From contig NZ_QVMH01000016.1 of assembly GCF_010501035.1 (NCBI RefSeq), positions 1 to 39,916 of the forward strand: a stretch of 39,916 nucleotides of DNA, written 5' to 3'. Positions 1,928 through 39,766 of the stretch are shown piece by piece. Source of the DNA: Paludibacter sp. 221. GTDB taxonomy: Bacteria; Bacteroidota; Bacteroidia; Bacteroidales; Paludibacteraceae. Position 1 is the first letter of the stretch. Each line of letters starts with the position of its first letter. The notes beneath the pieces are model-generated. The model saw only the letters and a list, made by a program, of their open reading frames with translations, was not told the DNA's origin and ran no database searches. A program made the translations under genes and the position numbers.

Positions 1928-2216
1928 GTAAATGTGCCAATGTGCCAATATGCCAATGTGATTGATGTGACTAATTCTGCAAAGCAGAGCTTTGCTTTTA
2001 AAAGCAGTGTAGCGGGACGCTACGCTATGTGTTGCTCCTATCCCTCGTTGCAAACGAGAGGGAGAATGATAACAAATGTAGGGGCGAAACATCTTTCGCC
2101 CAATAAGAAGAAGAGAACAAAAGAATATTACCCGTAAAGCGGACTCGAAACTGCTATACGGAAACAAATAATAATTAAACATTAACAATTAATAATTAAA
2201 GAGGCAGGTGTTTGAT
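1928..2216. repeat. Palindrome mosaic block 1 (between GT39 gene and gtrA)
   Basis: A gene-free stretch built from recurring modules. In order: GTGCCAATGTGCCAATATGCC-like tandem (1933-1960); hairpin GCAAAGCAGAGCTTTGC followed by the REP-like palindrome GTAGCGGGACGCTAC (2009-2023), the same unit that flanks the RAYT gene near 37.3 and 38.0 kb; a CCCTCGTT/AACGAGAGGG hairpin (2042-2062); a GGGCGAAA/TTTCGCCC hairpin (2082-2101); CCGTAAAGCGG...CTGCTATACGG (2132-2161); and an AT-rich ATTAACAATTAATAATTAA segment (about 2168-2200). Most of these also occur in block 2 (2932-3222), in a different order. Confidence 0.75.
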
Positions 2217-2777: not shown

Positions 2778-3232
2778 TTATTTAATAACGGTTTTCGGCA
2801 ATAAAAACGCTTTTTTAGCGTACTAAATACTAACGTTTGTTTTTATTGTAAATCTTTCTGTGCGTTGCTCATAAAGGTAAATTAATAAATATAACTAAAT
2901 GGGAACTACGTTTAAAACGTAGAACCATTAACCTCTCGTTACAAACGAGAGGGAGGTTTGGATATTATGGCTGCTTTTCAAGCAGGACACGGACTGCAAT
3001 TTCCGACACGTCGGAATGTAGCATCCGCGCCAGCCAAGTGTAAATAAAATTTGTAGGGGCGAAAAATCTTTCGCCCGATAAAGAAAAGCGAACATAATTT
3101 ATCCGTAAAGCGGACTTTAAGCCGCTATACGGATACAAATAATAATTAACCATTAACAATTAATAATTAACCCCGTGTCTCCGTGTTTAAATTGTAACTC
3201 GTAACTAAAGACTTGTAACTACTGATATAATT
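2778..3232. repeat. Palindrome mosaic block 2 (between gtrA and DUF4292 gene)
   Basis: No standard gene is seen. Modules in order: ACGTTTAAAACGT hairpin (2908-2920); CCTCTCGTT/AACGAGAGG hairpin (2932-2952); 68-bp repeat copy 2 (2967-3034); GGGCGAAA/TTTCGCCC hairpin (3057-3076); CCGTAAAGCGG...CCGCTATACGG (3103-3132); ATTAACCATTAACAATTAA segment (3135-3170); CCGTGTCTCCGTGTTTAA (3173-3190); CTTGTAACT module (3191-3222) ending 10 bases before the DUF4292 start codon. Five of these units also occur in block 1, shuffled. Confidence 0.75.
2967..3034 (+). repeat. 68-bp direct repeat, copy 2
   Basis: Second copy of the 2217-2284 repeat, 750 bases downstream in the same orientation, with 66 of 68 identical positions. 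In the matching frame an ATG at 2967 runs to TAA at 3047 (26 residues, starting MAAFQAGHG), with the last codons diverging after the repeat ends. Recombination between the copies would delete gtrA. Confidence 0.85.
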
Positions 3233-12526: not shown

Positions 12527-12674
12527 TAGAGCTTGTCTAAATTTTCCACAAAGAAACTGTTATAGTTTTACATATGTCTTTTTCGCAATAAAATTGGTGA
12601 TTCTTTAGGGAAAATTTCCCTAAAGAATCACCAATTTTTACTTTGTAAGCAAATTTCAAACAACGCTCTTAGCG
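12527..12674. mobile_element. MITE-like element with terminal inverted repeats and central palindrome
   Basis: The left end TTAGAGCTTGTCTAAATTTT (from about 12527) is an imperfect inverted copy of the right end, which reads in reverse complement TAAGAGCGTTGTTTGAAATTT (to about 12672). In between lies a 49-base perfect palindrome. A related arrangement sits at 37152-37335; both share CTTTTTCGCAATAAA (here direct, there inverted) and TTTAGGGAAA. No transposase is encoded, so this would be a non-autonomous element. Exact borders and any target duplication are not clear. Confidence 0.5.
12590..12638. terminator. 49-base perfect palindrome, probable bidirectional terminator
   Basis: Left arm 12590-12613 and right arm 12615-12638 are perfect reverse complements (24 bp) around a single A at 12614, flanked by A-rich sequence on the left and a T-run on the right. 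It lies between the convergent LuxR-type (+) and peroxiredoxin (-) genes, where it would stop transcription from both sides. It is also the core of the MITE-like element described above. Confidence 0.75.
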
Positions 12675-14543: not shown

Positions 14544-16688
14544 TTAATCTTCTTTCTTAGGTTTGTCTTCTCTTGGAGGACGTGGAAGAAGTGCTTTGCG
14601 CGACAGTTTGAATTTACCGGTCTTTTGGTCGATGTCGAGCAGTTTTACCTCTATCTTGTCGCCCTCTTTCAGTCCGGCCGATTCCATTGTCTCGATGCGT
14701 TTCCAGTCTATTTCAGAAATGTGTAGCAAGCCTTCTTTGCCCGGCATAAACTCAACGAAAGCGCCGTAAGGCATTACCGATTTCACGGTAGCCTGATATG
14801 TTTCGCCTACTTCCGGTATGGCTACAATGCCTTTTATCATCTGTATAGCCGAGTCGATAGATTGCTTGTTAGTACCTGCTATTTCCACACGTCCTTGATC
14901 GCCTATTTCTTCGATAGCGATATTAGCTCCTGTTTCGGCCTGCATGTTTTGAATGATTTTTCCGCCGGGGCCTATTACCGCACCAATCATTTCTTTCGGA
15001 ATGAACATTACTACGATGCGTGGAGCATGTGGTTTCAGGTCTTCGCGAGGTTCGGCCAGCGTTTCCTGTATTTTGCCAAGAATATGCATGCGTCCTGCTT
15101 TAGCCTGATTCAATGCAGTTTCCAGAATTTCGAACGAAAGCCCGTCTACCTTGATGTCCATCTGGGTAGCGGTGATACCGTCGCGTGTTCCGGTTACTTT
15201 AAAGTCCATATCTCCCAAGTGGTCTTCGTCTCCTAAAATATCTGAAAGCACGGCAAAGTTTTTTCCTTTATTTTCAGAAATCAGTCCCATTGCGATACCC
15301 GAAACCGGTTTCTTTATTTGCACACCTGCATCCATCAGTGCCAATGTTCCGGCACAAACCGTTGCCATCGACGATGAGCCGTTCGATTCCAAAATATCAG
15401 ATACAACGCGTACTACGTATGGATAATCTTCCGGCATCATTGGTTTCAATGCGCGGAAAGCAAGGTTTCCGTGACCAATTTCGCGACGTCCGATACCACG
15501 TGATGCACGGGCTTCGCCTGTCGAAAACGGAGGGAAATTGTAGTGCAACAAAAAGCGTTCTTTTCCCTGAACGAGCGATTCGTCTACTATTTTTTCATCC
15601 ATTTTAGTACCTAAAGTCACAGTAGTCAGCGATTGGGTTTCGCCACGTGTGAAAACCGCCGAACCGTGAGGGCCGGGCAGATAACCTACTTCCGACCAGA
15701 TAGGACGGATTTCGGTAGTTTTACGGCCATCCAAACGTTTTCCTTCGTCCAGAATAGCACGGCGCATAGCTTCTTTTTCTACATCGTGGTAATACTTGCC
15801 GATTAATGCTTTCTTTTCTTCGGCCACTTCCGGTTCCAGTCCGGCAACGTATTCTTCTTTTACTTTAGCAAAGTTTTCGGCACGCGAGTGTTTGTTGGCA
15901 TCGCAAGCAGTTGCTACTTTGTATACTTTGTCGTATGTTTTTGCCCAAACGTCTTTTTTCAGGTCTTCGTCGTTTTCTTCGTGGCAGTATTCGCGTTTTA
16001 CGGTTTTGCCTACAGCTTTCATCATTTCGAGCTGAGCCTGGCAGTGAACTTTAATAGCTTCGTGAGCTACCTTCATAGCTTCGAGCAAGTCTTCTTCGCT
16101 CACTTCTTTCATTTCGCCTTCCACCATCATGATGTTGTCCATAGTGGCTGCTACGATGATGTCCATATCGGCACCTTCCAATTGCTCGAAGGTAGGATTT
16201 ACTACGAATTTTCCGCCAATACGTGCTACACGTACTTCAGAGATAGGGCCGTTGAACGGAATGTCTGAAACAGCCAGTGCAGCCGATGCTGCCAACCCTG
16301 CCAATGCGTCGGGCATATCTACACCGTCGGCCGAATAAAGGGTTACGTTTACAAAAGTTTCAGCATGATAATCGTCCGGAAAAAGCGGGCGTAAAGCACG
16401 GTCGACCAAGCGCGATACTAATATCTCATAGTCGGATGGACGTCCTTCGCGGCGTGTGAATCCGCCGGGGAAACGGCCGTTCGACGCGAATTTTTCTTTA
16501 TAATCAACTGAAAGAGGCATGAAATCCGTTCCCGGATTTGCTTCTTGTGCCGACACTACTGTCGCCAATAGCATGGTTTCGCCCATGCGCAGCATTACCG
16601 CTCCGTCGGCTTGCTTTGCCAGCTTGCCTGTTTCGAGGGTAATAGTTCTTCCGTCGCCCAATGCGATGGTGTTTGTAACTACGTTCAT
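14544..16688 (-). CDS. pnp: Polyribonucleotide nucleotidyltransferase (PNPase)
   Basis: A 714-aa phosphorolytic 3'-5' exoribonuclease involved in RNA turnover. Domains in order: RNase PH-like 1 (about 1-140), helical linker, RNase PH-like 2 (about 310-540, with [16 protein letters not shown] and GRREIGHG), KH (about 555-615, with [12 protein letters not shown]), and S1 (about 625-700). I chose the start at 16688 ([13 protein letters not shown]); the frame is open to 16733, but that adds a non-homologous tail upstream of the probable transcription start. It is monocistronic, with a clear promoter and terminator. Confidence 0.95.
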
Positions 16689-23614: not shown

Positions 23615-23735
23615 ATCTTGGCTCTTGATTCTTTTTACGACACATAGGTTCAGTTAGGCTACACATAGGAACACATAGGTTTTTCTTTCCGTATAGCGGC
23701 TTAAAGTCCGCTTTACGGATAATGTCTTTGTCTTT

Positions 23736-33709: not shown

Positions 33710-36700
33710 ATGGATAAAAAAATTAAAGTACTTTTCAGCATAAGTTTATTGTTATTCCTTTTTTACGGTTGCTCTACGAAAAAGAACACGTGGCTTACCC
33801 GTAATTTTCACTCTATGACAACGAAATATAACGTTGCGTTCAACGGGAGTGAGAGTTATAACGAGGGGTTGAAAAATATCCTGTCGGCAAATCAGGATGA
33901 TTATTCCACTATCATCCCTATGTATCCTATCAGCCGCCACTCCAATGCTACGGCAGGCACTTCCAACATGGATAAAACGATTGAGAAAAGCCGTAAAGCC
34001 ATTAAACTCCACTCGATAAAGGTGAAGCCCAAGCGCGATTTGAAAAAATGGAACGACCCCGAATATCAGGCTTTTTACAATCAGAACGAGTTTAATCCGG
34101 CACTTAAAGAGGCTTGGATGATGATAGGAAAAGCTGAATTTCATAAAGCCGACTTTTTAGGCTCGGTAGGTACGTTCTCTTATATTTCCAAATATTATTC
34201 TGCCGATAAAGACCTTGTGGCACAGTGCCAACTGTGGATGGTGCGGGCTTATGTAGAGATGGACTGGATTTACGAGGCCGAGCAAATGCTTGAAAAAGTG
34301 AATCAGGATGACCTGCGAAGCACAAGTATCGGGCTTTCGGCATCGGCCAACGCTGTACTTCTTCTCAAAAAAGGACAGTATAAAGATGCAATCCCTTTTG
34401 TAGAATTGTCTCTATCCCGCGAGCGGGATAAAGCCATGAAGCAACGTTTTACTTTTCTGCTGGCACAGCTTTACGAGCAAACGGGCGACAAGCAGGCTGC
34501 CACAAAAGCCTATTCGGATGTTATAAAGATGAATCCGCCTTATACAATGGACTTTAATGCGCGTATAAGCAAGGCGCAACTGGTGTCGGGCAGCGATAAG
34601 GAGAAAGTGCTGAAGGACTTGCGCAAAATGGCAAAAAACGCGAATAACAAGGAATATCTCGACCAGATATATTATGCTATTGGCAATATATATTTGCACG
34701 ATGGCGACACCGCGCGCGCTATAGAAAACTATGATTTATCGGTAGAATCCAGTACCCGCAAGGGGGTGGAAAAAGCGGTGACGCTTATTACTTTGGGCGA
34801 CTTGTATTACGGCCGGCGCGAATATGTGAAAGCACAGCCTAATTACGATGAAGCATCGAAAATACTTACGAACGAGAACAGCGATTATGCACGTGTTGCG
34901 AAGCTGGCAGAAGTATTGAGCGATTTGACGAGGGAGTATGAAGTAGTTGTGCTACAGGATAGCTTGCAGCATCTTGCTACTCTGCCTAAAGACAAGCAAC
35001 TGAAAATCATAGAAAAAGTGATTAAGGATAAAGCCGAAGCCGAGGAACGTGCAAAGCTGCAAGCCGAACAGCAGCAGCGTGATGAAGGTGACCGTTTTGT
35101 GCCACTCGGAGGGCCTATTGGTGCTAATGCCGGCAAGTGGTATTTTTACAATCCGAATCTAATACGTTCGGGTAAATCAGATTTCCAACGGCAGTGGGGA
35201 AACCGTAAGCTGGAAGATAACTGGCGACGCTCGAACAAATCGACAGCTATGTTTGCAGATAGCTCGTTTGATGCAATGGGTGACGGAACCGAAACAGGAG
35301 ACATAGAAAGCGGTGACGGAACAGCAGCCACTCCGGCAGCAATGGACGATACGAAGCCGGAATACTACTTGCGTCAGATACCTGCCACTCCGGAGCAAAT
35401 AAGCCGCTCGAATGCTGAGATAGCAGATGCACTGCTCAATATGGGTGCTATCTACAAGGACAGGCTCAACGACCTGCCTATGGCGATTGATACGTATGAG
35501 GATTTTATCCGCCGTTTTAGGTCTGACGAGCGTGTGCCCGATGCTTATTTCCAGCTTTATCTGGTGGAAACCAAACAGCAGAACACCGCCGGAGCTAATG
35601 CTTACAGAACAAGGATTATTAATAATTATCCTAAAAGCAAGTATGCACAAATACTCTCGCAACCTAATTATATAGAACAGTTCAACCGGATGCAGAAACA
35701 GCAGGATTCGCTGTATGCGGCCACTTATCAGGCTTATTCAAACAACGATTTCCGTACAGTTGTTCGGAATACCGGGTATGCTGAGAAGAATTTTCCACTT
35801 TCCAACCTGATGCCTAAATTTAAGTTCCTTAGTGCGTTGAGCATAGGAAAGACCGATACGCCTCAAAACTTTGAAACAGCCCTTAACGAGGTGGTCGAAA
35901 CCTACCCTCAGAGCGATGTGAGTGCAATGGCTAAAGATATTGTGGCACTTATCCGTCAGGGGCGCGAAGCGCAAACAGGAACCTCGCACGGAACTTTGCT
36001 TACTCGCCGGGGCGATGAGTTGAAGGCGGTAATGGAAGAAGAAGGCATTACGTCGGAAAAAGCATTTTCGCCCGAGATGCAAGGCAAACACCGTGTTATG
36101 CTTATAAGCAGTGCCGAACAGCAAGACATGTACCAACTGATGTATCAGGTGGCTGCGTTTAACTTTACACGCTTCATGGTGAAGGAGTTCGATTTGGTTC
36201 TGAACTTGCTGGATGATACCCAACAGGTGCTTTCGGTAACTAATTTTGAATCGTACGAAGAAGCGGTGTGGTATCTTAATTCTATCAATTCAGACCTGAC
36301 CATTGCCGACTGGGTGACACGGTTGGGTATTCAGGAGGTAATTATATCGGAAGAAAACTTTGCGCTGATTCGCATTTTAGGTCTGGACGATTATTTGTCG
36401 TTCCAAGCTCAGCATTTAGGAAAAATTCCGGCGAAGCCTACTACAAGCCGACCGAAAGAAACAAAACCTAAAGAAGAGGAAAAGAAAAAAGAAACTCCGG
36501 TACAACCCGAACGTCCTATAGCTCAGCAGCCTGAACAAAAACAGGAGGAAGCTAAGCAAGAGCAGCAACAGGAGGTTGTAGCGGTGCAAGAGCCGGAGAA
36601 AAAAGAAGAAGTAGCGGTGGTAGAACAGCCCGAAGCGGCAGAAACTCCGGTACAAGTTCAAGAGCCTGAGCCTGAGCCTGAAGAGGAGTTGGAATTGTAC

Positions 36701-37072
36701 AAGGGGCTGTTTGCTTATCAACCCGAAAAACCTCACTTTGTAGCAGTATATATTATGAGAGGCTCTGTGAATTTTGATAAGTTCAAGGCTGATGTGGATG
36801 CTTATAACTCTCAAAATTACGGTATGCTCAATTTGAATATATCGTTGGAAAATGTAGGCGACCAGCAGGTTATTATCATCGGTAGCTTTAATGATGCCAA
36901 CATTGCAAAATCGTATCTGATGAGGATAGTAAAAGAGCGTGAGTTGTTCGAGGGGCTTCGTGGAAGCAACTACCGTAACTTATTGGGTACTCAACGAAAC
37001 CTGAATGTAATGATGCAAAACAACGCTCTGAGTACTTATACCACATTTATGCAGGAGTATTATTTGAAGTAA
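33710..37072 (+). CDS. porW: PorW/SprE-type T9SS TPR lipoprotein
   Basis: A 1120-aa predicted lipoprotein (lipobox before Cys21 in LFLFYGCSTKKNTW) required for type IX secretion and, in gliders, motility (SprE). The segment after the cysteine, CSTKKNTWLTRNFHSMTTKYNVAFNGSESY, is the hallmark of this family. Tetratricopeptide repeats cover roughly residues 140-420 and again 570-760. A low-complexity region rich in Glu, Gln, Pro and Val spans about 905-1000, and a small C-terminal domain follows (about 1008-1120). It should sit in the periplasm bound to a membrane. It precedes porX, separated by a RAYT gene and repeats. Confidence 0.88.
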   Translation: MDKKIKVLFSISLLLFLFYGCSTKKNTWLTRNFHSMTTKYNVAFNGSESYNEGLKNILSANQDDYSTIIPMYPISRHSNATAGTSNMDKTIEKSRKAIKLHSIKVKPKRDLKKWNDPEYQAFYNQNEFNPALKEAWMMIGKAEFHKADFLGSVGTFSYISKYYSADKDLVAQCQLWMVRAYVEMDWIYEAEQMLEKVNQDDLRSTSIGLSASANAVLLLKKGQYKDAIPFVELSLSRERDKAMKQRFTFLLAQLYEQTGDKQAATKAYSDVIKMNPPYTMDFNARISKAQLVSGSDKEKVLKDLRKMAKNANNKEYLDQIYYAIGNIYLHDGDTARAIENYDLSVESSTRKGVEKAVTLITLGDLYYGRREYVKAQPNYDEASKILTNENSDYARVAKLAEVLSDLTREYEVVVLQDSLQHLATLPKDKQLKIIEKVIKDKAEAEERAKLQAEQQQRDEGDRFVPLGGPIGANAGKWYFYNPNLIRSGKSDFQRQWGNRKLEDNWRRSNKSTAMFADSSFDAMGDGTETGDIESGDGTAATPAAMDDTKPEYYLRQIPATPEQISRSNAEIADALLNMGAIYKDRLNDLPMAIDTYEDFIRRFRSDERVPDAYFQLYLVETKQQNTAGANAYRTRIINNYPKSKYAQILSQPNYIEQFNRMQKQQDSLYAATYQAYSNNDFRTVVRNTGYAEKNFPLSNLMPKFKFLSALSIGKTDTPQNFETALNEVVETYPQSDVSAMAKDIVALIRQGREAQTGTSHGTLLTRRGDELKAVMEEEGITSEKAFSPEMQGKHRVMLISSAEQQDMYQLMYQVAAFNFTRFMVKEFDLVLNLLDDTQQVLSVTNFESYEEAVWYLNSINSDLTIADWVTRLGIQEVIISEENFALIRILGLDDYLSFQAQHLGKIPAKPTTSRPKETKPKEEEKKKETPVQPERPIAQQPEQKQEEAKQEQQQEVVAVQEPEKKEEVAVVEQPEAAETPVQVQEPEPEPEEELELYKGLFAYQPEKPHFVAVYIMRGSVNFDKFKADVDAYNSQNYGMLNLNISLENVGDQQVIIIGSFNDANIAKSYLMRIVKERELFEGLRGSNYRNLLGTQRNLNVMMQNNALSTYTTFMQEYYLK

Positions 37073-37151
37073 GAAATAATAATTAGTAGCGCGCGAGGGG
37101 TAAGGAATAAAAGTAATGTCTGTCTCATCGGATTTATAATCCGATGATGTC

Positions 37152-37335
37152 TTAGAGGTTGTTTTAAATTTTACTCGCAAGATAAATTTTGGTAATTTTT
37201 TAGGGAAATTTTGACTTTATTTTACTCATTTAGCGGGCTAAATGAGTAAAATGAGAGGTGAAATTTAGCTACGCTCAATTTCGTGTCACAAAAAGGGACA
37301 TAATTTATTGCGAAAAAGATATATTCTATATTCAA
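37152..37335. mobile_element. MITE-like element, second copy type
   Basis: The left end is TTAGAGGTTGTTTTAAATTTT; the right end, read in reverse complement, is AGAGGGTTTTGAATATAG, an imperfect terminal inverted repeat. Inside are a TTTTAGGGAAA motif, a perfect 16-bp stem (37219-37234 with 37237-37252, around GG) and, inverted, CTTTTTCGCAATAAA near 37303-37320. The same ends and internal motifs occur at 12527-12674. It encodes no protein. Confidence 0.45.
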
Positions 37336-37343
37336 AACCCTCT

Positions 37344-37396
37344 GTTCGGCGTAGCGTCCCGCTACGTCGTTGCTAAAAGCAAAGCTCCTGCTTTGC
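37344..37396 (-). repeat. REP-like unit, left flank of the RAYT gene
   Basis: GTTCGGCGTAGCGTCCCGCT and following bases, containing the palindrome GTAGCG-TCC-CGCTAC (37351-37365), then AAAGCAAAGCTCCTGCTTTGC. It is a near-perfect inverted copy of 38005-38056 on the other side of the transposase gene. The same pair of hairpins occurs at about 1977-2025. Confidence 0.8.
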
Positions 37397-37427
37397 AAAC
37401 ACAAAACACAAAAGACAAGAATAAAGA

Positions 37428-37997
37428 ATGAGTACAGGATACCAGATAAAGGAACAAGATGGATTACATTTTGTAACATTTCAGATAGTAAGGTGGATTG
37501 ATATCTTCACGCGTCGTATTTATCGGGATATTGTAGTAGAAAGTTTATGTTTTTGTCAACAACAAAAAGGCTTGGAAATATATGCTTTTGTAATAATGAG
37601 TAATCACATACATTTAGTGATTCGCAGTTCAAAAGGAGATTTAAGCACAACGATAAAGGAGTTTAAAAGTTTTACTGCCAAACAGATATTGAAAGCGATA
37701 GACACTGAACCGGAAAGCAGACGTGATTGGATGTTGAACTTATTTGAGTTTTCGGCAAAACAACATAAACGCAATGAAAAACATCAGGTTTGGACACATG
37801 AAAACCATGCAGAAATAATTTACGAAGATAAATTTCTTCTTCAAAAAGTAAATTACATTCACGAAAATCCTGTTCGTGCAGGCATTGTAGAAAAGGCAGA
37901 AGATTATTTGTATTCAAGCGCAAGGAATTATGCCGGATTGTCAACTTGTTTAGATGTGATAGTAACACCATTATCGGGTAAAAAGATTAAACGATAG
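37428..37997 (+). CDS. REP-associated tyrosine transposase (RAYT, Y1 transposase family)
   Basis: A 189-aa single-domain HUH transposase. The metal-binding HUH motif is in FVIMSNHIHLVIRS (His-Ile-His, about residues 61-63). The family-typical LLQKVNYIHENPVRAGIVEKAEDYLYSSARNYAG lies near the C-terminus; its tyrosines include the likely nucleophile (about residues 142-166), and the NPVRAGIV segment is diagnostic of RAYTs. IS200-type enzymes are shorter and lack it. The gene is flanked by inverted REP-like hairpin units, as expected for a RAYT that processes REP DNA. The reading frame is intact. It sits between porW and porX. Confidence 0.9.
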   Translation: MSTGYQIKEQDGLHFVTFQIVRWIDIFTRRIYRDIVVESLCFCQQQKGLEIYAFVIMSNHIHLVIRSSKGDLSTTIKEFKSFTAKQILKAIDTEPESRRDWMLNLFEFSAKQHKRNEKHQVWTHENHAEIIYEDKFLLQKVNYIHENPVRAGIVEKAEDYLYSSARNYAGLSTCLDVIVTPLSGKKIKR

Positions 37998-38004
37998 AAG
38001 CATA

Positions 38005-38056
38005 CAAAGCAAGAGCTTTGTTTTTAATGGCGACGTAGCGGGACGCTACGCCGAAC
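38005..38056 (+). repeat. REP-like unit, right flank of the RAYT gene
   Basis: CAAAGCAAGAGCTTTG hairpin, then GTAGCG-GGA-CGCTAC (38035-38049), ending GCCGAAC. Inverted relative to 37344-37396 and in the same orientation as 1977-2025. It is followed by GAGAGGG and a CTTGATTCTTGGCTC segment (about 38093-38110). Confidence 0.8.
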
Positions 38057-38218: not shown

Positions 38219-39766
38219 ATGAAAAAAGATAAAATACTTTGGGCTGATGATGAGATTGATTTGTTGCGCCCTTACGTCCTGTTTCTGGAAGAAAAAGGAT
38301 ATGACGTAGTTACCGCCACTAATGGTAAAGATGCTATTGATTTTGCCCGGGAAGATAGTTTTGATATAATATTCCTGGATGAGAATATGCCGGGCCTGAG
38401 TGGTTTGGAAACTCTGGCACAGATAAAGGAAACAGACCCAAATGTGCCTGTGGTGATGATAACCAAGAGCGAGGAAGAAAATATAATGGATATGGCTATT
38501 GGCAATAAAATAGCCGACTACCTTACCAAGCCCGTCAACCCAAGCCAAATTCTGCTTACACTGAAAAAGAATATTCATAAGAAAGAGATTGTTACCGAGC
38601 ATACAACCTCTACTTACCGTTCGGAGTTTGGGCGTATAGGGATGCAGATAAATGATTCGCTGACCTATGAAGATTGGGTCGAGGTTTATAAAAAACTGGT
38701 GTATTGGGAGCTTGAACTTGCCGAAACCGATAATGGTATGGACGAAATGCTCCGTATGCAAAAAGACGAAGCAAACAGTACGTTCACTAAATTTATCAAG
38801 AAGAATTATCTTGATTGGTTCGAGCATCCGGAGAATCGTCCTTTGATAAGTCCGGAACTGTTTAAAACAAAGGTATTCCCTCTTTTGGATAAAGGAGAGA
38901 AAGTGTTCTTTATCCTGATTGACAATTTTCGTTACGACCAGTTCCGTATTATTCGCGAGATGCTTAGCGAGTTTTATCAGTTTGAGGACGAGAGCCTGTA
39001 TTGTAGTATTTTGCCTACTGCTACCCAGTATGCACGCAATGCCATTTTCTCAGGGTTGATGCCTTTGCAGATTCAGGAAATGTTTCCCGAACTGTGGGTT
39101 GAAGAGGAAGAGGATGAAGGTAAAAACCTGAAAGAAAAAGATTTGATAGAAACCCAGATAAACCGTTTTCGTAAAAACTACACATTTTCGTACCACAAGA
39201 TAAATGACTCAAACGCTTGCGAAAAACTGATTGAGCAACTGCCTCAGCTGGACAGCAACCAGTTGAATGTTTGTGTGCTGAATTTTATTGATATGCTTTC
39301 GCATGCCCGTACCGACTCGAAAATGATGCGTGAGTTGGCGAATGATGCTGAGGCTTACCGTTCGTTAACGCTTTCGTGGTTTAAACATTCGGCTACCTAC
39401 GAGCTTTTCAGGGCTATCTCGCGTCGTGGCTACAAGGTGATTCTGACTACCGACCACGGTACTATTCAGGTAGATAATGCAATAAAAGTAGTAGGCGACA
39501 GGAATACGAATGTAAACCTGCGCTATAAGGTGGGTAAAAACCTGAGTTACAATAAAAAAGAAGTGTTTGAAGTAACGCAGCCTTCCAAAATAGGTTTGCC
39601 AAGCCCCAATATAAGCTCAACATATGTATTTGCGGGGAATGACGATTTTTTTGCCTATCCCAATAACTACAATTACTATGTGAGTTACTATAAAAACACG
39701 TTTCAGCACGGGGGTGTTTCTATGGAAGAAATGCTTATCCCCATAATACAGATGGAACCCAAATAG
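38219..39766 (+). CDS. porX: T9SS response regulator PorX (receiver plus PglZ domain)
   Basis: A 515-aa two-component output protein that controls type IX secretion genes with the histidine kinase PorY and sigma factor SigP in Porphyromonas gingivalis. The receiver domain (about 4-120) is complete: acidic pair in WADDE, phospho-acceptor Asp54 (IIFLDENMPG), Thr in VVMITKSEEE and the Lys in YLTKPV. The C-terminal PglZ/alkaline-phosphatase-like domain (about 200-515) shows ILIDNFRYDQ, PTATQYARNAIFSGLMP and TTDHGTI, consistent with a metal-dependent phosphodiesterase site. I chose the ATG at 38219 over a TTG at 38210. No kinase is in the window. Confidence 0.93.
   Translation: MKKDKILWADDEIDLLRPYVLFLEEKGYDVVTATNGKDAIDFAREDSFDIIFLDENMPGLSGLETLAQIKETDPNVPVVMITKSEEENIMDMAIGNKIADYLTKPVNPSQILLTLKKNIHKKEIVTEHTTSTYRSEFGRIGMQINDSLTYEDWVEVYKKLVYWELELAETDNGMDEMLRMQKDEANSTFTKFIKKNYLDWFEHPENRPLISPELFKTKVFPLLDKGEKVFFILIDNFRYDQFRIIREMLSEFYQFEDESLYCSILPTATQYARNAIFSGLMPLQIQEMFPELWVEEEEDEGKNLKEKDLIETQINRFRKNYTFSYHKINDSNACEKLIEQLPQLDSNQLNVCVLNFIDMLSHARTDSKMMRELANDAEAYRSLTLSWFKHSATYELFRAISRRGYKVILTTDHGTIQVDNAIKVVGDRNTNVNLRYKVGKNLSYNKKEVFEVTQPSKIGLPSPNISSTYVFAGNDDFFAYPNNYNYYVSYYKNTFQHGGVSMEEMLIPIIQMEPK

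Follow-up and report, generated by a model that had tools for sequence, protein, structure and literature searches.

The stretch of DNA studied here, referred to as the window, comprises 39,916 nucleotides of a Paludibacter genome. Toward its right end, a gene for a RAYT (REP-associated tyrosine transposase) of 189 aa is located on the plus strand at 37428..37997, between two copies of a two-hairpin unit that both face it. The left unit (37344..37398, plus strand) begins with a GTT foot at 37344-37346, continues with hairpin 1 (37347-37369) and a linker, and closes with hairpin 2 (37379-37396). The right unit (38002..38056, minus strand) is inverted, its GTT foot being at 38056-38054 of the minus strand. 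Scored with a covariance model built for such two-hairpin units, they reach 72 and 67 bits, respectively. The first-pass annotation had described an intact RAYT ORF between two inverted units of ~52 bp, and this description stands: a repeat search returned the arms 37344-37395 and 38005-38056 as inverted stretches of 52 nt that are 88% complementary, and translation of 37428-37997 revealed no stop within the 189 codons.

A third unit in the same arrangement had also been claimed. A unit is indeed present at 1978..2027 (minus strand; ~1986-2025 in the repeat search), 50 bp past the ORF at 188-1927, but it is degenerate. It scores 32 bits in the covariance model (E 6.8e-4) and has lost its 5' foot, reading ACAT where the RAYT-flanking units have a 5' GTTC foot. 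With one mismatch allowed, GTAGCGNNNCGCTAC has three matches in the window, versus 0.02 expected.

Each of the window units folds as two hairpins when treated as single-stranded DNA. On the GTT strand the folding z-score is -6.5 for the left and right units alike, and -3.6 for the degenerate third one. Hairpin 1 of the GTT strand has 10 pairs, one of them G.T, and a TCC loop; hairpin 2 has 7 pairs. On the complementary strand a C.A mismatch replaces the G.T pair and the units fold less well (-17.8 kcal/mol for the GTT strand vs. -16.1 for the complement, and -16.4 vs. -14.5). The GTAG of the window units lies within the hairpin 1 stem, where it is paired. The canonical GTAG REP has GT[AG]G at 0–2 nt 5' of its hairpin; the unit of this genome has no such motif in that position, and its foot is GTT.

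The neighbors of the RAYT and its units are porW/sprE on the left (33710..37072, plus strand; 717 bits with the PorW/SprE model, cut-off 250) and porX on the right (38219..39766, plus strand; 843 bits with the PorX model, cut-off 300), and the location between two T9SS genes noted in the first pass is thereby borne out. The gap between porW and porX is 1146 bp in the window and ~100–130 bp in three genomes of the same genus, in which (at 87–89% completeness) we found no RAYT and no units. The empty site that was to be looked for in relatives is therefore present. Because neither the gene nor the units were detected in these three genus-mates and the gap is empty, the RAYT and its units are recent here on the scale of the genus, unless they have been lost in the genus-mates. 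Other repeats were noted at 12590-12638 and 37151-37212 of the window: a perfect 24-bp inverted repeat, and a 62-nt stretch (12611-12672 vs. 37151-37212, the latter just to the left of the left unit) that is inverted and 74% complementary.

The RAYT protein and its relatives

The protein has the sequence features of a Y1 HUH enzyme, with an NHIH motif (H60, H62), the tyrosine Y143 in YIHENP and a YSSA tail. It scores 108.1 bits with the curated model REP_Tyr_transpos (NCBIfam NF047646; cut-off 80) and 32.7 bits with Y1_Tnp (cut-off 23), and its 25.8 bits with the IS200 transposase model are under that model's cut-off of 55. H60, H62 and Y143 are invariant across the relatives in alignments of 21 and 39 rows, the latter being the window RAYT and 38 of 44 intact relatives. 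From H60 to Y143 the spacing is 83 residues, as compared with 81–85 in Bacteroidota relatives in which both motifs were found. W122 is followed by T, not Q; relatives with WT and those with WQ group together within Bacteroidota.

The structure predicted for the window RAYT has a mean pLDDT of 90.6. Its top PDB relative by profile comparison is 4er8, the E. coli RAYT complexed with a REP hairpin, and this entry was also rank 1 for the predicted fold by Foldseek (E 1.1e-8). Superposition on 4er8 gave a Z of 15.3, with 2.9 A over 140 residues, versus a Z of 11.0 for IS608. The curated model, the HUH pair and tyrosine, the 4er8 fold and the dispersed flanking units together support the identification of the protein as a RAYT/TnpAREP of the Y1 HUH type.

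Several observations concern relatives of the gene in other genomes. At L019/L158, L159 and L180, RAYT relatives have one stop codon interrupting a reading frame that is conserved in all other respects, so that the gene may often decay while the repeats remain. A RAYT with units was also found at L152 on a contig labeled Defluviitaleaceae (Bacillota), although it is nested in the Bacteroidota group of the RAYT tree, and the label of that contig is probably a binning error. A search of viral contigs returned three weak relatives, with 25–26% identity.

Dispersal of the units in this and other genomes

The genome that contains the window (3.11 Mb in 102 contigs, 99.8% complete) has 10 exact copies of the palindrome, versus 0 in a reversed control, and the covariance model placed the two-hairpin unit at 19 sites at E<=0.1. 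The whole-genome search proposed in the first pass thus did reveal a dispersed unit, and confinement of the palindrome to three places, the finding that was to count against the proposal, is rejected by the 10 exact copies. Sixteen of the 19 units overlap no ORF of at least 120 aa and one more shares only 4 nt with an ORF of that size. The other two are the 1978 unit, which overlaps an ORF antisense to the preceding gene, and the weakest match (on contig C50, E 0.06), which is inside an ORF and is probably false. Over 11 aligned units the mean pairwise identity is 70%, but two of them, on contigs C31 and C39, agree at 98% across 56 aligned columns. For the first-pass reading of an active or recently active system, the general divergence and this one close pair point in different directions. 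The model identified one inverted REPIN pair in this genome, and further pairs were recognized by eye. Pyrimidines occupy positions -5 to -1 relative to the foot in 14–16 of 16 copies that had been preselected by a GTT-type start, and a weaker trend was observed in relatives (across 44 feet, C makes up 27–48% at these positions). Such a pyrimidine tract 5' of GTT would fit a cut there.

Pairing of the units was also assessed across six genomes, in which 42 pairs of neighbors were at most 100 bp apart: 40 were +/-, with feet outward, two were -/+ and none were tandem. In genome G025, REPINs that are 95–98% alike occupy four places, and these copies agree over the span bounded by GTT and AAC and at a few C-rich and G-rich edge bases, beyond which they diverge. 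Genome G121 has two full RAYT elements, 92% alike and 2.9 kb apart, and element ends at two further sites where the gene has been deleted at one common junction. Based on the G025 copies and the G121 deletion derivatives, RAYT elements and REPINs share their ends. The paired units of this genome and of its relatives class as REPINs, two inverted REPs forming a dispersed unit.

To what extent the units occur together with a RAYT was assessed in 199 genomes including this one, 34 of which have a strong RAYT match (E<1e-15). Five or more units at E<=0.001 were present in 17 of these 34 genomes vs. 7 of the 165 others; the remaining 17 strong-RAYT genomes have fewer than five units of this model. 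The association was weaker, at 6/23 vs. 7/165 (p 0.0017, in Fisher tests that ignore relatedness), once the 11 genomes that supplied sequences to the model were removed. With 28 candidates scored per genome, all of these unit counts are lower bounds. Whether the units are equally abundant in relatives that lack a RAYT, the other finding that was to count against the proposal, received a divided answer: G004 (a single contig), G005 and G026 have 11–13 units at E<=0.001, and even a profile search returned no close RAYT in them, G004 having only a distant match that is 27% identical, whereas the three genus-mates have no units. Units without a detectable close RAYT occur in other genomes as well. 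The RAYTs of G004, G005 and G026 could have been lost, or enzymes could be shared, but these genomes do weaken the link between RAYT and repeat. The proposed substrate link nevertheless gains from the gene-facing inverted units at many Bacteroidota RAYTs and from the compensated stems among the closer ones. As far as sequence comparison can establish it, the link is well supported, and it is very likely the window RAYT that spreads the repeats.

During our analysis we noted that the genome contains further repeats and Y1 genes. A second family of palindromes carries a genuine GTAG foot at its 5' end (GTAG-GGGCGAAA-NATN-TTTCGCCC). It is present in the window at 2078-2101 and 3053-3076, and 40 copies occur in the genome when up to two mismatches are allowed, compared with none in the reversed control. 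It looks closer to the canonical GTAG REP than the RAYT-flanking unit does. A third palindrome family, CGTATAGCGGCTTNNAGTCCGCTTTACG, is found in the window at 2133-2160, 3104-3131 and 23690-23717, with 66 copies in the genome at <=3 mismatches and 0 in the control. Two same-direction copies of CGTATAGCGGCTTNNAGTCCGCTTTACG flank a second RAYT-like gene on contig C44 (Y1 part at 15259-15606), an open frame of 208 aa that scores 43 bits with REP_Tyr_transpos, under the cut-off of 80, and that may be considered a candidate enzyme for the CGTATAGCGGCTTNNAGTCCGCTTTACG family. No exact copy of the first half of the GTAG-footed palindrome was found within the 3.4 kb around this gene. Four more Y1_Tnp genes are present on contigs C47 (L012), C24 (L013), C11 (L011) and C37 (L014), those on C47 and C24 being between inverted repeats of ~70 and ~81 bp that are 91% and 86% alike. 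Composite intergenic repeat blocks at 2069-2293 and 2948-3170 of the window, 83–89% alike, flank a short ORF (2358-2777), and parts of them recur at loci such as L005, L008 and L009.

Hairpin design and foot at related loci

The same unit frame was observed at RAYT relatives with 66–84% identity. In some close relatives (L019–L023) the GTAG of the stem is kept, and in others it reads ATAG, CAAG or GAAG (L017, L018, L019). Several stem changes are compensated: GGCATAGCG in L017, GGCCAAGCG in L018 and L019, and GGCGAAGCG in L018. An inverted-repeat search was without a match at E<=0.01 at 7 of 30 RAYT loci, two of which (L019, L026) show units in another search. Over 24 aligned units the covariation score was 0.440, vs. 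0.211+-0.021 for shuffled alignments (reached by 0/500) and at most 0.127 for slid controls. Two-sided changes were found in 6/8 pairs of one helix and 6/7 of the other, while the count of further pair types was matched by 21/500 shuffles. Helix 2 pairs in just 67% of cells, partly through misalignment. The units of L005 and L007, which carry a bulge of one base, stand out of register in this alignment. The pair at columns 6 and 26 is G.T in 16/24 units, G-C in 8/24 and never A-T, where the G side was set by the selection pattern and the T side was free.

The 24 units were mostly picked by a pattern that required GTT together with G in column 6, and the conservation of GTT in that alignment is therefore by construction. 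Because of this we examined the foot by a search that began with the hairpin. At each of 49 named relatives the hairpin nearest the gene was taken without use of the foot in its selection; these were 49 of 66 loci, nearly all of the 17 left out being fragments, and some were from the genomes in which the motif was first seen. Of the 98 sides, 71 had a hairpin, and these belonged to 41 loci. A GTT foot was present on the outer side of hairpin 1 on 31 of the 71 sides and on the gene-facing side on three (sign test 8e-7), and it occurs at 11% of background hairpins in the same contigs. A second hairpin followed on the gene side in 42/71 and on the outer side in 12/71 (background 16%; sign test 9e-6), leaving 29/71 sides on which no hairpin 2 was found gene-side.

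As applied to this RAYT, the argument from a GTAG at the foot of a hairpin, the site recognized by characterized RAYTs in E. coli, did not survive this analysis. GTAG is paired in the stem of the window units and within the 5' arm on 21/71 sides, and a GT[AG]G no more than 6 nt 5' of it was observed for only 1/71 hairpins.

By the rule used, the foot is other than GTT on 40/71 sides. When assigned by eye, GTT feet were seen in Cytophagaceae, Prevotellaceae, Paludibacter and others, and other subclades had GCT (mainly Marinilabiliaceae), CTC or TCT, with GTG in Acidobacteria. Foot type tracks the RAYT tree, requiring 8 changes vs. 13.5 when shuffled (reached by 0/200), in a test on the 34 of 49 loci where feet could be assigned by eye after 15 unclear or broken loci were dropped.

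A model for the element and comparison with known systems

We consider it highly likely that the locus represents a REPtron whose RAYT is subclass 2.6-like (Bertels group 5), in which the gene resides in the middle of a REPIN and its enzyme handles one strand of a GTT-footed, two-hairpin REP. The order of the element would be GTT-HP1-linker-HP2-[RAYT]-HP2'-linker'-HP1'-AAC. In this model, the GTT strand would become single-stranded, as it might in the template of lagging-strand synthesis, and the HUH/Tyr enzyme would bind hairpin 1 through its shape and the GTT foot, with hairpin 2 as an inward-facing accessory element. Y143 would then cut near the pyrimidine-rich stretch 5' of GTT, and the enzyme would join the ends, such that the REPIN could be excised, copied or inserted elsewhere. 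We infer binding, cutting and mobility, with the choice of strand and the cut position, from the family (PMC8266576, in the parts considered).

Other explanations of the locus have to be weighed against the REPtron. That the units are ordinary intergenic hairpins, such as terminators or RNA processing sites, among which a RAYT landed by chance, seems to us very improbable. The position of 17/19 units of this genome outside ORFs of at least 120 aa is as expected for terminators, but also for REPs, and neither the inverted, gene-facing units with compensated stems at many RAYTs nor the REPIN pairing is accommodated by it. With background hairpins in the same contigs representing random surroundings, terminators or chance were rejected on the foot enrichment (31 vs. 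3 of 71) and on the +/- arrangement of 40/42 neighbors.

It is possible, if doubtful, that the unit-RAYT-unit segment moves as an autonomous insertion sequence similar to IS200/IS605, and that the REPINs are its MITEs. The empty site in the genus-mates would agree with this, as would the two full copies in G121 that are 92% alike and the deleted copies there with one junction at two sites, but the full copies, being 2.9 kb apart, could have arisen by local duplication. The score of 25.8 bits against the IS200 cut-off of 55, and the single full copy in this genome vs. its 18–19 units, also argue against such autonomy. We regard as rather unlikely, too, that the RAYT is domesticated, binding or processing hairpins for the host, with the dispersed units being immobile old relics; this is compatible with the REPtron reading save for present-day mobility. 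One full RAYT element copy is what this genome has and most of its units are diverged (mean pairwise identity 70%), consistent with domestication, and TnpAREP has been termed a domesticated transposase (in the parts of PMC8266576 considered). However, neither the gene nor the units turned up in three genus-mates whose porW-porX gap is empty, two units of this genome are 98% alike, and the near-identical REPINs in G025 and deletion derivatives in G121 point to movement elsewhere.

Taking the locus as a REPtron, we hypothesize further that the subclass 2.6 RAYTs of Bacteroidota may have their own substrate code, a proposal whose prospects we judge to be evenly balanced. A G[T/C]T foot (chiefly GTT) would replace GTAG, hairpin 1 would be read by shape and have a wobble pair that marks the active strand, the inward hairpin 2 would be obligatory, and the foot (GTT, GCT, CTC, TCT) would co-evolve with the enzyme along the RAYT tree. 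If true, a guide-to-cleavage rule would be readable from natural variation. An explicit rule of two hairpins and a GTT foot would make substrates searchable in any genome and would allow direct oligonucleotide tests of the match between foot and cut site.

Among published systems, RAYT biochemistry concerns groups 2 and 3, whose feet are GTAG, and the enzymes cut at CT, chosen through GTAG (PMC8266576, in the parts considered). The system described here is similar to E. coli TnpAREP (4er8) in its fold, its HUH/Tyr residues, its hairpin with a 5' foot and its inverted pairs, and differs from it in having GTT instead of GTAG as the foot and a second hairpin per unit (PMC8266576). Residues W94, Q95, E100, H101 and R104 are named around the GTAG site of the E. 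coli enzyme, where the role of W94 is called unclear (main text of PMC6006769). W94 is kept as W122 in the window RAYT, and Q95, E100, H101 and R104 align with T123, A128, E129 and Y132, in an aligned stretch that is weak alone.

Similarities to other repeats were also evident. The "double palindromic TIRs" reported beside some related genes, the TIRYTs (Di Nocera et al. 2013, PMC3733652, in part), are likened here by description, not by sequence, in that they are two-palindrome inverted repeats beside a Y1 transposase, some of them repeated in the genome. The CGTC REPs of the same source have a CGTC tag at one end and no adjoining transposase gene (PMC3733652). In many of our units the 3' base of hairpin 1 does have CGTC; there it is paired and variable (GCTG, GCCG, CCTT), and a transposase adjoins. 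Pseudomonas REPINs consist of GTAG-type REPs with one palindrome, and not of two ordered hairpins as here. The likeness to them lies in two inverted REPs serving as the mobile unit (PMC3116915, in part).

REPtrons of TnpAY1 subclass 2.6/RAYT group 5 have been described in Bacteroidetes (Quentin et al. 2018, PMC6006769, main text), with NH[LIV]H, YIH[QN]NP, an SS tail and a HuH-Y distance of ~82. The window RAYT matches this group in phylum, length, NH[LIV]H, YIHxNP, SS tail and HuH-Y spacing, and it shares with the group REP-like structures that lack GT[AG]G, both next to the gene and at other places in the genome; WQ is given there as a consensus motif with no stated requirement in the main text (PMC6006769). 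The REP structures of subclass 2.6 are termed "atypical" and "weaker", and the main text gives no rule for them (PMC6006769). A literature search that included main-text sections of that paper returned no statement of a GTT foot. The GTT foot, the two ordered hairpins, the stem covariation and the REPIN pairing defined here go beyond the published main-text description of subclass 2.6, but some of these features may already stand in its Table S1 (PMC6006769). The kind of system, a subclass 2.6/group 5 REPtron, is already published, and the substrate rule is the part that may be new.
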